Positions 2,820 to 6,600 of a stretch of 15,047 nt of DNA are shown here, one piece after another. The stretch's first letter is position 1. Each line of letters begins with the position of its first letter. The stretch comes from Chitinophagaceae bacterium (GTDB taxonomy: Bacteria > Bacteroidota > Bacteroidia > Chitinophagales > Chitinophagaceae): the NCBI GenBank assembly GCA_009996555.1, contig JAACZX010000011.1, positions 1 to 15,047 on the forward strand, read 5' to 3'. Below the pieces are notes generated by a model. The model saw only the letters and a list, made by a program, of their open reading frames with translations. It searched no databases and was not told where the DNA came from. Both the position numbers and the translations under genes were made by a program.

Positions 2820-3785
2820 ATGTCAGTACATGATTTAGAAAATTTATTTCAACAAAAGATCGATGAAGAGGTAAAGATTGAGCCGAAGGATTGGATGCCC
2901 GAGGCCTATCGCAAAACCAATATTCGTCAGATCAGTCAGCACGCTCACAGTGAAATTGTGGGGATGTTGCCCGAAGGCAACTGGATCAGCCGTGCACCAT
3001 CGCTCAAACGCAAAGCTATTTTAATGGCCAAGGTGCAGGATGAAGCCGGTCATGGTTTATATCTCTACTGTGCTGCAGAAACATTGGGCATGAGCCGTGA
3101 AGAAATGATCAATGATCTGCACAGCGGCAAAGCCAAATACTCTTCCATTTTTAATTATCCGACACTTACATGGGCCGATATGGGTGCCATTGGCTGGTTG
3201 GTTGATGGTGCTGCCATTCTCAACCAGGTAATGTTGTGCCGCACCAGTTACGGACCTTATGCACGGGCTATGGTGCGAATTTGTAAAGAAGAAAGTTTTC
3301 ATCAACGCCAGGGTTTTGAATCGTTGCTGGTTCTATCAAAAGGAACAGATGAGCAGAAAGCGATGTGCCAGGATGCCATCAACAGATGGTGGTGGCCCAG
3401 CCTCATGATGTTTGGACCGAAGGATAGCGAAAGCACCAACAGCGATCAAAGCATGAAATGGAAGATCAAACGTAAAACAAATGATGAACTGCGTCAGCAG
3501 TTTGTAGACATGTGTGTGGAGCAGGTGAAATTGTTAGGCATGACCTTGCCCGACCCTGCTTTGAAATGGAATGAAGCACGTGGTCATTATGACTTTGGTG
3601 AAATTGACTGGAATGAATTCTGGAATGTGGTGAAAGGAAACGGCCCCTGCAACAAACAACGTTTGGATGCACGCCGCAAAGCACATGAAGAAGGAAGATG
3701 GGTACGTGAAGCAGCAGCAGCACATGCGGAGAAAAGAAAGGCCTCCCTAAATCCCTCCAAAGGAGGGACTTTGGCAGCAGCTTGA
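2820..3785 (+). CDS. paaA: Phenylacetyl-CoA 1,2-epoxidase, catalytic di-iron subunit A
   Basis: The 321-residue protein is the catalytic subunit that epoxidises the aromatic ring of phenylacetyl-CoA using O2 in the cytoplasm. The ferritin-like carboxylate-bridged di-iron motif is visible: E45 in HSEIVGML, E75-A-G-H78 in [12 protein letters not shown], and E158-S-F-H161 in [11 protein letters not shown]. The region [19 protein letters not shown] is also characteristic of PaaA. The E. coli protein is about 309 residues (from memory); the extra length here sits at the C-terminus, where residues 308-318 ([11 protein letters not shown]) are encoded by a palindromic repeat and only three alanines follow. 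It is the second gene of the cluster and is followed after 18 bases by paaB. Confidence 0.96.
3741..3772 (-). repeat. G/C palindromic repeat, copy 1 (orientation R), at the 3' end of paaA
   Basis: This 32-base element contains the hairpin CCCTCC-AAA-GGAGGG and a second C-rich arm, CCTCCCTAAAT, at its left. It is the exact reverse complement, 32 of 32 bases, of copy 4 at 4269-4300 inside paaC. It is read in frame as [11 protein letters not shown] at the very end of PaaA and lies 31 bases upstream of the paaB start codon. Confidence 0.9.
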
Positions 3786-3803
3786 TTAATTTTAAAAGAT
3801 TGA

Positions 3804-4190
3804 ATGATGAACTTTCAAATAAGAAAATTTTATTACGGCGACATACCTGATAGTAATTCAGGCGGAGACCCCATTGATGCAGGCTCTGAAATCCCCCCTT
3901 TGGGGGGTGGGGGGGCATGGCCTTTATGGGAAGTTTTCATCCGCAGTAAGCAAGGACTCGATCATAAACATGTAGGCAGTTTAAAAGCTGCTGATGCGCA
4001 AATGGCAATTGAGAATGCACGTGATGTGTATACACGCCGCATGGAAGGTGTAAGCATCTGGGTAGTGGAGAGCAAATACATTCATGCCAGCAATCCAGAT
4101 GAAGCAGAAAGTTTGTATGATCCTGCGAATGATAAAGTCTATCGTCATCCTACTTTTTATGATTTGCCTGATGAGGTGAAGCATATGTAG
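3804..4190 (+). CDS. paaB: Phenylacetyl-CoA 1,2-epoxidase, subunit B, with an extended N-terminus
   Basis: PaaB is the small non-catalytic subunit that bridges PaaAC pairs in the epoxidase complex. The core is unmistakable: WPLWEVFIRSKQGLDHKHVG (residues 39-58), then AADAQMAIENARDVYTRR and GVSIWVVESKYI. The E. coli protein is about 95 residues (from memory), and its WPLWEVF motif is near the N-terminus; here 38 residues precede it. Residues 29-38 (EIPPLGGGGA) come from a palindromic repeat. No Met codon exists between residue 2 and this motif in the same frame, so the start must be one of the two adjacent ATGs (3804 or 3807), unless a rare start codon is used. It follows paaA after 18 bases and precedes paaC by 48 bases. 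Confidence 0.92.
   Translation: MMNFQIRKFYYGDIPDSNSGGDPIDAGSEIPPLGGGGAWPLWEVFIRSKQGLDHKHVGSLKAADAQMAIENARDVYTRRMEGVSIWVVESKYIHASNPDEAESLYDPANDKVYRHPTFYDLPDEVKHM
3889..3916 (+). repeat. G/C palindromic repeat, copy 2 (orientation F), inside the paaB 5' region
   Basis: The element reads AAAT, then CCCCCC-TTT-GGGGGG, then T and a run of seven G, then C. It shares the AAAT...CTTTGG...GGGGC layout with the other F copies and is read in frame as IPPLGGGGA, between the unusual N-terminal extension and the conserved core of PaaB. It lies 85 bases after the paaB ATG. Confidence 0.85.
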
Positions 4191-4225
4191 GCCCCCCTCT
4201 AACTCCCCCAAAGGGGGAGAACTTT
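4190..4225 (-). repeat. G/C palindromic repeat, copy 3 (orientation R), between paaB and paaC
   Basis: The element fills the paaB-paaC gap from the last base of the paaB stop codon. It has GGCCCCCCTCTAA, then the hairpin CTCCCCC-AAA-GGGGGAG, then AACTTT. It is in the same orientation as copy 1 and ends 13 bases before the paaC start codon. Its internal hairpin lacks a T-run that would make it a convincing terminator. Confidence 0.85.
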
Positions 4226-4238
4226 AAACACTCCGAGA

Positions 4239-5018
4239 ATGGAATCAATTTCAAAAAAATCAGACTCTAAAGTCCCTCCTTTGGAGGGATTTAGGGAGGC
4301 TTATACTTTACACTTAGCAGATACAACCCTCATTCTTTCGCAACGGAACAGCGAATGGTGCGGGCATGGACCAATATTGGAACAGGATATTGCCATCACC
4401 AATATTTCGTTAGACCTTTTAGGACAATCAAGAAATTTTTATCAATACGCAGCTGCATTAAAGAACGATGGTTCAACAGAAGATTCATTGGCTTACTTAC
4501 GCACTGAACGTGAGTTTAAAAATTTATTGCTTGTTGAACTGGAGAACGGCGATTGGGGACAAACCATTTTACGGCAATATCTTTTCAGCCAATATCAACT
4601 GTTGCTGTTTCAACAACTGCAACAAGGCAGTGATGAACAATTAGCAGCCATTGCCACAAAAGCCATTAAAGAAATAACTTACCATGTTCGTTGGAGCAGC
4701 GAATGGGTGATCCGTTTAGGCGATGGGACAGATGAAAGTCATAATCGTATGTTGCATACCATTGATGAATTGTGGCGTTACACAGGCGAACTGTTTGAAG
4801 CTGCAGATTATGAAACAGCAATGGGGATTGATCTTGCAGCCATCAATCAAATATGGACAGAAAAAGTAACTGCCGTATTTGATGAAGCGAAACTACCTGT
4901 ACCTCAAAATGTATTTGTACAGAAAGGTGGCAAGCACGGCATCCATACTGAACAGCTTGGTTATATTTTAACGGAACTGCAATACCTGCAACGCACATAT
5001 CCGGGAGCGAAGTGGTAA
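4239..5018 (+). CDS. paaC: Phenylacetyl-CoA 1,2-epoxidase, structural subunit C
   Basis: PaaC is the ferritin-like partner of PaaA that has lost the metal site and supports substrate binding in the heterodimer. The 259-residue protein shows the family motifs: LADTTLILSQRNSEWCGHGP (residues 27-46), LEQDIAITNISLDLLGQSRN (47-66), RTEREFKNLLLVELENGDW (88-106), and KEITYHVRWSSEWVIRLGDG (144-163). The E. coli protein is about 248 residues (from memory). The excess of roughly 11 matches residues 11-21 ([11 protein letters not shown]), which are encoded by a palindromic repeat just before the first conserved helix. The ATG at 4239 is the only Met upstream of that helix in frame. The gene is 48 bases after paaB, and that gap is occupied by repeat copy 3. 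Confidence 0.95.
   Translation: MESISKKSDSKVPPLEGFREAYTLHLADTTLILSQRNSEWCGHGPILEQDIAITNISLDLLGQSRNFYQYAAALKNDGSTEDSLAYLRTEREFKNLLLVELENGDWGQTILRQYLFSQYQLLLFQQLQQGSDEQLAAIATKAIKEITYHVRWSSEWVIRLGDGTDESHNRMLHTIDELWRYTGELFEAADYETAMGIDLAAINQIWTEKVTAVFDEAKLPVPQNVFVQKGGKHGIHTEQLGYILTELQYLQRTYPGAKW
4269..4300 (+). repeat. G/C palindromic repeat, copy 4 (orientation F), inside the paaC 5' region
   Basis: This 32-base element contains TCCCTCC-TTT-GGAGGGA followed by TTTAGGGAGGC. It is the exact reverse complement of copy 1 (3741-3772). It is read in frame as [11 protein letters not shown] at residues 11-21 of PaaC and begins 30 bases after the start codon. Confidence 0.9.
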
Positions 5019-5026
5019 AGCCCAAC

Positions 5027-5061
5027 AGCCCCTCCCAACCTCCCCGGAGGGGAGGAATTTT
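5027..5061 (-). repeat. G/C palindromic repeat, copy 5 (orientation R), between paaC and paaD
   Basis: The element has AGCCCCTCCCAA, then the hairpin CCTCCCC-GGAGGGGAGG with almost no loop, then AATTTT. It lies in the 50-base paaC-paaD gap and ends seven bases before the paaD ATG. The GGAGGGGAGGA part is Shine-Dalgarno-like and lies 11-21 bases before that ATG, so the repeat may supply the ribosome binding site. Confidence 0.82.
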
Positions 5062-5068
5062 CAGCAAC

Positions 5069-5605
5069 ATGAACAACGAGCAACCATATATCAATATATC
5101 TGCAGCAGAGCAAAAGATCTGGTCGATACTTTCAACAGTAGTTGATCCGGAAGTTCCTGTGTTAACGATACTTGATTTAGGAATTGTTAGAGAGCTAAAA
5201 TTTGAGAGTGATATAAATCCCCCTTTAGGGGGTTGGGGGGTTTACATCACGCCCACTTACACCGGTTGCCCCGCAATGGACATGATTGCCATGAACATCC
5301 GTTTGGCATTAGCCGAACAGGGATATAAGCATGTAAAAGTTACTTCTGTTCTTTCTCCTGCATGGACGACTGATTGGATGACGGAAACAGGAAAAGAAAA
5401 ACTGAAACAGTACGGCATCGCTCCTCCTAATCCCAAACAACAGGTTTGTAACGATCAGTTATTTGCACCCAATGAGGCAGTGCAATGTCCGCACTGCAAT
5501 TCTTATCACACACATCGTATCAGTGAATTTGGTTCAACTGCCTGCAAAGCATTATACCAATGCGACGAATGCAAAGAGCCGTTTGATTATTTTAAATGCC
5601 ATTGA
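5069..5605 (+). CDS. paaD: Phenylacetyl-CoA epoxidase maturation factor PaaD (MIP18/DUF59 type)
   Basis: PaaD belongs to the MIP18/SufT-like family and is thought to help iron or iron-sulfur assembly in the epoxidase; it is not part of the catalytic complex. The 178-residue protein has DPEVPVLTILDLGIVRE (26-42) and TPTYTGCPAMDMI (61-73), the MIP18 core with its conserved Cys67. A C-terminal zinc-ribbon-like region has C140-P-H-C143, then C159, C165-D-E-C168 and C177. Residues 49-57 (INPPLGGWG) come from a palindromic repeat placed in the turn between two strands. A GTG at 5012 in the same frame would add 19 residues made largely from repeat copy 5; the ATG at 5069 is preferred because it follows that repeat and starts a normal N-terminus. 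It is the last gene of the cluster. Confidence 0.94.
   Translation: MNNEQPYINISAAEQKIWSILSTVVDPEVPVLTILDLGIVRELKFESDINPPLGGWGVYITPTYTGCPAMDMIAMNIRLALAEQGYKHVKVTSVLSPAWTTDWMTETGKEKLKQYGIAPPNPKQQVCNDQLFAPNEAVQCPHCNSYHTHRISEFGSTACKALYQCDECKEPFDYFKCH
5214..5243 (+). repeat. G/C palindromic repeat, copy 6 (orientation F), inside paaD
   Basis: The element reads TAAAT, then CCCCCTTTAGGGGG (a near-perfect hairpin), then TTGGGGGGTTT. It is read in frame as NPPLGGWGV, the same frame as copies 2 and 4, in the turn between two MIP18-core strands of PaaD. It begins 145 bases after the paaD ATG. Confidence 0.88.
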
Positions 5606-5606
5606 G

Positions 5607-5684
5607 GATTTTAGATTTGCGATTGCAGATTTAAATTTCAACACATCAGGCAAATCTAAAATCGCCAATCTGAAATCTGCAATC
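5607..5684. repeat. Two inverted arrays of degenerate GATTNNN heptamers between convergent genes
   Basis: On the plus strand 5607-5634 reads as four 7-mers: GATTTTA, GATTTGC, GATTGCA, GATTTAA. On the minus strand 5684-5651 reads GATTGCA, GATTTCA, GATTGGC, GATTTTA and a partial GATTTG. The two arrays face each other across 16 bases. GATTTTAGATTTG (5607-5619) pairs perfectly with 5651-5663, and GATTGCAGATTT (5621-5632) pairs perfectly with 5673-5684; the pairs interleave rather than nest. The block fills the gap between paaD (+) and the isomerase gene (-), where transcription from both sides must end. Confidence 0.75.
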
Positions 5685-5685
5685 A

Positions 5686-6600
5686 TCAAAAGCTGTCTGC
5701 TTCCCTATAAGCTTTAATCAACGCCAGCTCACCTTCTTTACCGGGCAACGCATTGCCATGTTCCATCCCCATGATCCCTTTGAAGCCTTTCTTGTGAATA
5801 TGTTTGAAGATGTTCTTGTAATTCATTTCACCGGTGCCCGGTTCTTTGCGGCCGGGGTTATCACCTATCTGGAAATAACCGGTTTCTTCCCACACACGAT
5901 CAATCGATGCAATGATGTTGCCTTCGTTACGCTGCATATGATACATATCAAACAAAAACTTGCACGACGGACTGTTCACTGCTTTGCAGATCATATAAGT
6001 TTGATCGGTGCCACGTAAAAACAGATCGCTGTTATCGCTCAATGCTTCCAGCACCATTACCAATCCATGCGGTTCAAGAATAGCAGCACCTTTACGTAAT
6101 GCAGTAATTACATTCGCTGTTTGCATTTCATGCGATAAACGACGATCGTAATTACCAGGCACTACCGTTAACCATTTTGCATTGCAACGCTTGGCTACTT
6201 CAATGGCTGTTCTGCAATCTTTCTCCATTTTATCAACCCACTCCTGCTTGCCGCTGGTGAGCGAAGTGATCCAATGCCAGTTATCGGAAGTGATCACAAA
6301 CACACCCATACGCATGCCCAGCTTTGCAAGCAAGTCGCCAATCTTTTTTTGTTCTTCAGCAGAACGGCTCATCATGCCATTGTCTTCAATACTGCGGAAA
6401 CCCTGGTCGTATGCCCAACGGATCTGATCGAGAAAACTATCACCGCCATTGTTTTTAAACATGCCTGCATGAAAAGCGTAATCCAATTGAAAAGGTTTCT
6501 CTGCCAATTGTTGTTTGTCCGATCCTGCCATTGCACTTGTACCTGTTACAGCAGCTGCTCCTGCCAATACCGATTGTTGAAGAAATTGTCTGCGTTGCAT
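5686..6600 (-). CDS. Tat-exported hydroxypyruvate-isomerase-like TIM-barrel protein
   Basis: The 304-residue protein belongs to the xylose-isomerase-like TIM-barrel superfamily, Hyi-like branch, which interconverts hydroxypyruvate and tartronate semialdehyde or acts on other small sugars. The signature DNPGRKEPGTGEMNY (247-261) is seen, with likely metal ligands E185 (VLEALSD), D218 and H221 (FDMYHMQ) and E280 (GMEHG). The N-terminus MQRRQFLQQSVLAGAAAVTG is a twin-arginine-type signal, so the enzyme should be exported folded, which is common for sugar enzymes of Bacteroidota but not for classical cytoplasmic Hyi. The frame extends to 6642, but the ATG at 6600 is chosen because it puts the twin arginines at residues 3-4. 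It points away from the SUMF1-like and Gfo/Idh genes; the true substrate is unknown. Confidence 0.87.
   Translation of the reverse strand: MQRRQFLQQSVLAGAAAVTGTSAMAGSDKQQLAEKPFQLDYAFHAGMFKNNGGDSFLDQIRWAYDQGFRSIEDNGMMSRSAEEQKKIGDLLAKLGMRMGVFVITSDNWHWITSLTSGKQEWVDKMEKDCRTAIEVAKRCNAKWLTVVPGNYDRRLSHEMQTANVITALRKGAAILEPHGLVMVLEALSDNSDLFLRGTDQTYMICKAVNSPSCKFLFDMYHMQRNEGNIIASIDRVWEETGYFQIGDNPGRKEPGTGEMNYKNIFKHIHKKGFKGIMGMEHGNALPGKEGELALIKAYREADSF

Follow-up and report, generated by a model that had tools for sequence, protein, structure and literature searches.

Palindromic repeats in the paa operon of a Chitinophagaceae bacterium as probable members of a mobile repeat family linked to DUF559 nucleases

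The window analysed here, viz. the whole stretch of 15,047 nucleotides of contig JAACZX010000011.1 (assembly GCA_009996555.1; C77 in our numbering) from a Chitinophagaceae bacterium, carries six G/C palindromes in its paa operon. These palindromes are copies of a dispersed REP-like family of palindromic repeats, and in this genus DUF559 domains lying in frame within host genes are physically linked to the same oriented repeat family. We consider it probable that the repeats are part of a nuclease-linked mobile family with both short and full forms. The paa arrangement is a clear and probably passive example of this family, whose copies at present contribute short peptides and hairpins to the operon.

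The source genome (G000; 4.13 Mb in 801 contigs, 93% complete) was searched with a 35-position covariance model made from 14 copies, with which 150 of 466 first-look candidates were scored. There were 82 matches at E<=10, the weak end of which includes chance matches, and 49 at E<=0.1, and a 27-base core with up to 3 mismatches was matched 7 times as compared to none for a reversed-pattern control. The consensus of the forward (F) form is approximately TAAAGTCCCTCCTTTGGAGGGATTTAGGGAGGCT, and by inspection of 14-15 aligned copies its ends read TAAAGTCCC.. and ..GGGAGGCT. Among 14 members of the genus, in each of which 150 candidates were scored, the genomes G000, G008, G011 and G012 are repeat-rich (49, 63, 81 and 81 matches at E<=0.1, respectively) and the remaining 10 have 0-8 matches each. 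The midpoint of the repeat falls inside an open reading frame (ORF) of at least 100 aa for 38 of 82 copies in G000 and 56 of 105 in G011. The six copies in the operon are the sole model matches listed for the window (at E<=10, among the 150 scored candidates), and they follow the order R-F-R-F-R-F over positions 3740-5242; thus, the strict alternation and the lack of copies elsewhere in the window, both recorded in the first-pass annotation, are borne out. A known RNA family was ruled out by Rfam, which gave no match at E<=1 for positions 3600-5400.

The orientation of the copies follows a rule that concerns gene ends. In G000 the GGGAGGC tail of the repeat points into the gene in 56 of the 59 copies located within 100 nt of a gene end (33 R copies at 3' ends and 23 F copies at 5' ends; the exceptions are 3 R copies at 5' ends), and in G011 this is true for 58 of 64 (44 R at 3' ends and 14 F at 5' ends, with four R copies at 5' ends and two F copies at 3' ends as exceptions). 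Lone copies, which have no partner within 500 nt, obey the same rule in 31 of 33 (G000) and 50 of 54 (G011) cases within 150 nt of a gene end, and farther inside genes the orientation is mixed (8 R and 8 F in G000; 12 R and 19 F in G011). Further, in 62 of the 78 R copies at 3' ends in the two genomes the distance of the tail edge from the stop codon is between -12 and +8 nt, and 34 of the 78 tails sit 0 to +8 nt past it. As consecutive genes in an operon read end-start-end-start, the tail-inward rule leads to the order R-F-R-F, and the bias towards R-F pairs derives mostly from this rule. The orientation is also non-random in the genome as a whole: of 17 neighbouring pairs within 200 nt in G000, 16 are R-F, one is R-R and none are F-R or F-F (binomial at 1/4, 3e-9). 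The bias is retained without the window (13 of 14; 1.6e-7) and also when the C643 pair that was used in the model is left out (12 of 13; 6e-7); in G011, 8 of 10 such pairs are R-F, one is F-F and one is F-R. The first-pass annotation had proposed that each R-F pair brackets a start codon. The tendency to form R-F pairs holds across the genome; however, the rule is one of gene ends, lone copies obey it, and two R-F pairs lying wholly within metG bracket no start. The tail-inward rule may reflect either an insertion preference or selection against the opposite orientation.

The tight clustering of R tails at stop codons could also be read as indicating that the repeats are not mobile and are gene-end hairpins under host selection, serving as terminators or in the protection of mRNA 3' ends, with the orientation reflecting function. 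A second hairpin-like motif (approximately GCAAGGCACAGCCCTTGC), which was read by eye next to the head of many lone copies at 3' ends, would fit such a role. However, this explanation, which we regard as unlikely, does not account for the copies within operons, the in-frame coding copies, or the copies around the nuclease domains of metG, leuS and aroC described below, and the presence of the copies varies between close relatives. It may be noted that in the source genome many lone 3'-end copies extend on their head side into a second motif (approximately GCAAGGCACAGCCCTTGCTTA), itself a hairpin, followed by T/A-rich DNA; this may represent a longer element or a terminator.

The link to the nuclease is seen both in the source genome and in its genus. 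A search with PF04480 identified four DUF559 domains in the assembly, each located within 100 nt of a model match; of these, the domains in metG, leuS and aroC are in frame inside the host gene and the fourth is a stand-alone gene. One of the two R-F pairs in metG flanks 414 nt that encode the in-frame domain, and the 27-base core of the first R copy of the window (R1) is identical to that of the R copy upstream of this insert. In all 13 other genomes of the genus, metG is contiguous where G000 has 156 inserted residues, the alignments covering query residues 1-228 (28-228 in one case) and then, a few bases on, resuming at about 381-387. A pattern for this site matched G000 and five relatives, which read IKVPL(K/Q)DAEGKVLYV where G000 carries the insert; the eight others were unmatched, mostly with loci that do not span the site. 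No target-site duplication was seen at the metG insert, where five residues of the relatives are replaced. In the genus there are 38 DUF559 matches in 11 of the 14 genomes, 29 of which were scanned as loci (L148 and eight matches without a locus were left out). At the lenient threshold of E<=10, a repeat match is present within 200 nt in 27 of these 29 loci, and in 16 of the 29 an R copy is present upstream and an F copy downstream. Inserts at the same site are shared for leuS (G000, G011 and G012), aroC (G000, G012 and G008), adenine deaminase (G012 and G008) and acetyl-CoA synthetase (G011 and G012), and DUF559 is also found as an N-terminal fusion to argB and hisA.

The resemblance of the repeats to BIMEs, which had been pointed out in the first-pass annotation, raises the possibility that these are classical REP elements moved by an IS200/IS605-like HUH transposase (RAYT), the association with the nuclease being secondary. 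The repeats are REP-like paired palindromes, and they match REP traits described in the literature (PMC3733652, PMC12306157), viz. short palindromes, head-tail asymmetry, inverted pairs and proximity to stop codons; further, Y1_Tnp genes, of which there are 50 matches in 13 of the 14 genus genomes, correlate in number with the repeats. However, the comparison with BIMEs misses the translated copies and the linkage to another enzyme family, and the adjacency of the repeats to the two enzymes is markedly different. In 30 of the 50 Y1_Tnp loci with 1.5 kb flanks (92.6 kb in total) there was only one match, of 12.7 bits, as compared to 61 matches in the 29 DUF559 loci (93.5 kb), both at E<=1. The GTAG/CGTC tag described in PMC3733652 is not part of the consensus, as judged from the 14-15 aligned copies, and the full forms hold DUF559, not Y1_Tnp. 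Membership in a BIME/RAYT system was rejected based on the scan of these 30 Y1_Tnp loci, and we give this explanation only a small probability.

In the nuclease-linked reading that we prefer, the full form of the element, which is found in frame inside host genes, consists of an R copy, a DUF559 nuclease domain and an F copy, so that the nuclease is read as a domain of the host protein, and the short forms are R-F pairs without the nuclease as well as single copies. The DUF559 nuclease would cut DNA and drive the spread of the repeats, moving the full form in cis and the short forms in trans, and those insertions would survive that stay in frame in loops or at N- or C-termini, or that abut a stop codon.

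The positions of the six copies within the paa operon are given in Table 1. R1, F1, F2 and F3 are translated in frame, in paaA, paaB, paaC and paaD, respectively. The R copies end 29, 13 and 7 nt before the ATGs of paaB (3804), paaC (4239) and paaD (5069), and the F copies start 82, 28 and 142 nt after them; the distances of 7-31 and 30-145 nt reported in the first-pass annotation agree with these values within the definition of the repeat edges. The ACTCCGA motif is found within 34 nt of the head in 8 of 82 copies, and the contigs examined for it (351 kb, both strands) contain 14 occurrences in total. The two copies of a pair may differ in subtype, as R1 (CCCTCC-type) is paired with F1 (CCCCCC-type) and R2 (CCCCC-type) with F2 (CCCTCC-type), and local template switching, by which the second copy would be made from the first, was rejected on this ground. 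As a separate observation, the 3' end of paaD (5601-5695) carries a different inverted repeat (ATTGAGGATTTTAGATTTGC ... GCAAATCTAAAATCGCCAAT), which resembles A/T-rich repeats found beside an IVP gene in G011.

Table 1. Genes of the paa operon and repeat-related features in the window
Feature	Position	Strand	Remarks
paaA	2820..3785	+	PF05138
copy R1	3740..3774	-	in frame, paaA C-terminus
paaB	3804..4190	+	PF06243
copy F1	3886..3917	+	in frame, paaB N-terminal linker (IPPLGGGGA), directly before the conserved WPLWEVF core
copy R2	4191..4225	-	tail abuts the paaB stop codon (offset 0)
ACTCCGA motif	4230..4236	+	head side of R2; recurs beside R copies at nuclease inserts and other R-F pairs
paaC	4239..5018	+	PF05138
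copy F2	4267..4301	+	in frame, paaC N-terminus; 41 nt from R2
copy R3	5027..5061	-	between paaC and paaD
paaD	5069..5605	+	PF01883 and PF23451; start set by homology to relatives
copy F3	5211..5242	+	in frame inside paaD (INPPLGGWG)

The history of these copies can be followed in relatives from the same genus. At the paaA-paaB junction no copy is present in G001 and G009, R1 alone without F1 is present in G013, R1 and a different F copy at the F1 place are present in G012, F1 is shared by G011, in which the R site is altered, and in G003 and G006 the R1 place holds a shorter related repeat while an F copy is absent. At the R3 place upstream of paaD, a diverged hairpin is present in five aligned relatives (G001, G009, G013, G003 and G006), and an F-like copy in paaD is found in G000 and G003 and is absent in G001, G009, G013 and G006. 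Based on these comparisons, the start of paaB and the N-terminus MN(F/I)QIRKFYYGDIP are ancestral, and for both paaB and paaD the bracketed start codon is ancestral and the two copies arrived separately. Insertion as a strict paired unit for all pairs is thus contradicted by the relatives at paaB and paaD. A different pattern is seen at the paaB-paaC junction, where R2, 41 nt with ACTCCGA, and F2 replace the short junction and the first paaC residues of relatives; R2 is not present in seven aligned relatives, whose paaC N-termini at the F2 place are short (e.g. MDNSLINYTLHLAD, MSASLIDYTLHLAD and MQNNQTDYLLHLAD). In the comparison of paa operons called for in the first-pass annotation, the copies thus vary between relatives, with separate gain at two of the junctions. 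Further, G011 and G012 carry two different in-frame F copies, AKTPPLEGLGEV and AKVSPSGGDLEGAS, at the same mid-gene position of paaC, before TEDSLAYL/SEDSLAYL, where none is present in G000. Two more observations concern G011. At its paaA 3' end (L039) a degenerate R copy encloses a CCCGATAGCTATCGGGA palindrome, so that different palindromes reuse one site. At its paaB-paaC junction, where the window has R2 and F2, there is an insert of about 600 nt that contains inverted GGAATTTGTAATTTGGAA-type repeats and an ORF (L039:918-1325:-) for a four-helix protein of the 23S_rRNA_IVP family (PF05635, E 3e-28); this is possibly a second protein-plus-repeat pair in the niche that R2 and F2 occupy in the window.

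The argC-argB junction holds three states within one genus. It is empty in G001, G003, G006 and G013; in G000 and G012 it contains R, about 40 nt and F, and the downstream gene has a new start and N-terminus; and it contains DUF559 in G008 (together with an F-like copy) and G009. In this comparison, 6 of 9 genomes gave no match to the ilvN pattern and 2 of 8 gave none to the hemF pattern. The start of argB is replaced in this process, from the ancestral MDKLIVIKIGGN to MQRAFFNSDVSNSFPLGRLGGALIVIKIGGN in G000, and similarly in G012 and G011. The suggestion of paired insertion in the first-pass annotation thus receives some support at argB; however, it does not apply to paaB and paaD, where the copies arrived separately. 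By comparison within the genus, in-frame insertions not present in the orthologues were found for paaA, paaB, paaC, paaD, argB and metG.

The mechanism proposed in the first-pass annotation was that the start-bracketing R-F pairs act as long hairpins in the mRNA, which tune the subunit ratio of the paa monooxygenase. R and F copies can pair, and the short windows 3700-3960 and 4990-5270 when folded alone pair R1 with F1 or R3 with F3; the window 4160-4340, however, mostly self-folds, and in the predicted minimum-energy fold of positions 3730-5260 the pairs R1-F2 and F1-R2 are joined across the whole of paaB, with R3 and F3 largely self-paired. The predicted probability that the start codon is unpaired, with the repeats as compared to both of them masked, is lower for paaB (0.37 vs 0.53) and paaD (0.25 vs 0.56) and higher for paaC (0.61 vs 0.39). 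By these predictions the repeats would make two of the starts less accessible and one more so, and an effect on translation is possible but inconsistent in direction. According to PMC12306157, translation in E. coli can be reduced by REPs that lie less than 16 nt from a stop codon, and R2 abuts the paaB stop codon. However, pairing of R and F in RNA cannot select R-F over F-R, because F-R would fold equally well, yet within 200 nt there are no F-R pairs in G000 and only one in G011. Further, the copies differ among close relatives that have the paa genes, and pairs are also present inside metG. The start-codon hairpin as the cause of the alternation was rejected based on this argument, the lone copies and the folds, and the mechanism as a whole is in our view very improbable.

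In its sequence the nuclease is related to a mobile-intron protein. In 17 aligned DUF559 domains the residues T13, E16, Q36, D45, E56, D58 and H62 are among the invariant positions, and the profile matches include 3hrl (endonuclease-like, 4.6e-31), 3r3p ('Mobile intron protein', 6.4e-5) and PvuRts1I (3.2e-3). We take 3r3p to be the EDxHD homing endonuclease I-Bth0305I. This enzyme is described in a review according to which it is self-splicing that allows homing endonucleases to enter conserved genes of the host (PMC3943268). As is characteristic of homing endonucleases, the relation to 3r3p goes together with filled and empty alleles at one conserved site (metG and argB). In the 11 fused ORFs that were scanned, no Pfam family for a protein-splicing (Hint) domain was detected at E<=0.001, which speaks against an intein in these ORFs. 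The tree of the nucleases shows clustering by host, with 27 changes of host label as compared to 78.8 in shuffles (none of 200 as low); the labels for MetG, adenine deaminase and LeuS are scattered on this tree, which fits repeated invasion. An AlphaFold model of a MetG-DUF559 fusion (24 sequences, mean pLDDT 60, pTM 0.40) was too weak to interpret; in this weak model the repeat-encoded residues 262-286 and 410-431 have pLDDT below 50 and the blocks from 291 to 410 are at 63-85. A defence role of the inserts was considered and rejected, as the three fused ORFs searched with PADLOC yielded just two matches, both weak (E 1.4e-4 and 2.8e-4).

Sequence comparisons indicate that DUF559 inserts of the same build, flanked by inverted repeats, occur across the phylum Bacteroidota. 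The domain was found in 27 of 60 genomes of the family, 109 of 198 of the phylum and 2 of 14 control genomes. In a named scan that gave at least 542 relatives, the best 80 were kept; these are mostly from Bacteroidota, along with Ignavibacteria and a few metagenome-assembled genomes (MAGs) of doubtful name, and in all 80 of them DUF559 lies within an ORF of 255-1645 aa. For 79 of these 80 loci (L223 was too short for the test) the flanking inverted repeat beats all 50 shuffles in 57 cases, and 41 of the 79 exceed the maximum (13.5) of 287 shifted-position controls. In the family and phylum set, 29 of 57 loci (L154-L210) were chosen, mainly for long ORFs; five of these (L154, L162, L188, L190 and L210) failed the motif pattern, and of the 24 loci tested 19 beat the shuffles. 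By BLASTP against reference hosts, the 131 loci comprise MetH (46), MetRS (19), LeuRS (12), adenine deaminase (7), acetyl-CoA synthetase (5), CinA (4), AroC (4), MiaB (2), ArgB (2), other hosts (14) and stand-alone genes (16). A search of a large database detected the domain at E<=1e-6 in 703 of 834 length-matched candidate proteins, and among 120 listed domain-bearing proteins the Pfam sets identify MetRS, MetH, adenine deaminase and CinA. Two DUF559 stretches within one host ORF are seen in the MetH of L266, from a Cytophagales MAG, and in G026:C90, and the phylum-level loci L182, L183, L185 and L198 have DUF559 in long ORFs whose flanks read as N6-adenine DNA methylase or restriction proteins. 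For carriage by phages there were two records, unannotated and with about 41% identity, and this reading was set aside.

A number of points weigh against the proposal of a nuclease-linked mobile family. The mobility, the role of the nuclease as motor and the mobilisation of short copies in trans are what we infer, and neither cutting nor movement has been observed. Most repeat copies have no adjoining nuclease, the arrangement with an upstream R and a downstream F is absent from 13 of the 29 genus DUF559 loci, 2 of the 29 are without any match, the stand-alone DUF559 genes L127, L136, L143 and L144 have R downstream, and L135 shows the reverse arrangement. The single insertions in paaB and paaD are not predicted by a strict paired-unit model. 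Across the 14 genomes the number of repeats correlates with that of DUF559 (rho 0.78) and also with that of Y1_Tnp (0.64), so that the counts do not tell the two enzymes apart; their adjacency to the repeats does. The gene calls behind the orientation counts are simple longest-ORF calls, and the group of stop-codon offsets at -12 to -8 (21 of 78) is in part a mechanical effect, as the stop codon is then provided by the repeat. The nuclease tree is based on 108 columns and its bootstrap is unsettled. At the broader level, 22 of 79 named loci and 5 of 24 loci of the family and phylum set do not beat the shuffles, one shifted control in the latter set scored 24, and the class-level leuS inserts L184 and L187 are at the level of shuffles.

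The results also suggest that the nuclease-flanking repeats in Bacteroidota enzymes are an undescribed kind of selfish DNA. In its widest form, to which we incline only slightly, the interpretation is that there exist across the phylum non-splicing, in-frame selfish elements consisting of DUF559 with palindromic R and F termini. By inserting at conserved sites, these would become translated domains of housekeeping enzymes such as MetH, MetRS, LeuRS, chorismate synthase, adenine deaminase, CinA and MiaB. The peptides encoded by the repeats would serve as flexible linkers in place of splicing, and the nuclease-less R-F pairs and single copies would spread through the genome in trans, their tails directed into genes, and would provide host genes with new N- and C-termini and even with start codons. 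In the titles and abstract openings of the open-access literature, papers on DUF559 were found without such elements, and DUF559 in combination with 'palindromic' retrieved only papers that by title seem unrelated; the subscription literature mostly lies outside this search. Two questions are open in this area, viz. how bacterial proteins acquire palindromic elements in frame and by what means REP-like repeats without a linked RAYT are moved, and for both of them a repeat family that is tied to an identifiable nuclease provides a testable enzyme. If the interpretation is correct, then a homing-type nuclease can colonise conserved genes without an intron or intein by persisting as an extra domain that the host protein tolerates, and repeats of this kind remodel the termini of proteins. 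In addition, the 'PPLGG' and 'NPSKGG' stretches and some of the start sites in annotations of Bacteroidota may be derived from these elements.

The elements described here share features with several known systems. Like the REP/BIME sequences with RAYT (REPtrons), they are asymmetric palindromes in the range of 20-40 nt, dispersed and often inversely paired, which are frequent close behind stop codons and for which a cognate DNA-cutting enzyme is proposed. However, the enzyme linked to the repeats described here is a nuclease of the DUF559 (Vsr/MTES-like) type, which is often inserted in frame into host proteins, whereas in REPtrons it is a free-standing Y1/HUH transposase; further, no GTAG/CGTC tag is seen here, and the R-F pairs follow the inward-tail rule at gene ends. 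With the Rickettsia palindromic elements, as described in PMC3733652, they share the presence of palindromic repeats in frame in protein-coding genes, but differ in sequence, in host phylum, and in the fixed orientation at gene ends and the linked nuclease. The inteins and intron-borne homing endonucleases of the EDxHD type (I-Bth0305I) resemble them in having a nuclease in conserved housekeeping genes, empty sites in relatives and the 3r3p profile match; in contrast, the inserts described here have palindromic flanks and, in the 11 fused ORFs, no Pfam splicing domain, they stay translated, and their short repeat copies spread genome-wide. Lastly, the short copies resemble miniature inverted-repeat transposable elements (MITEs) in being short, inverted-repeat-ended and nuclease-less relatives of a larger element, from which they differ in that each end is itself a hairpin that can occur alone and in that the metG insert shows no duplication of its target.

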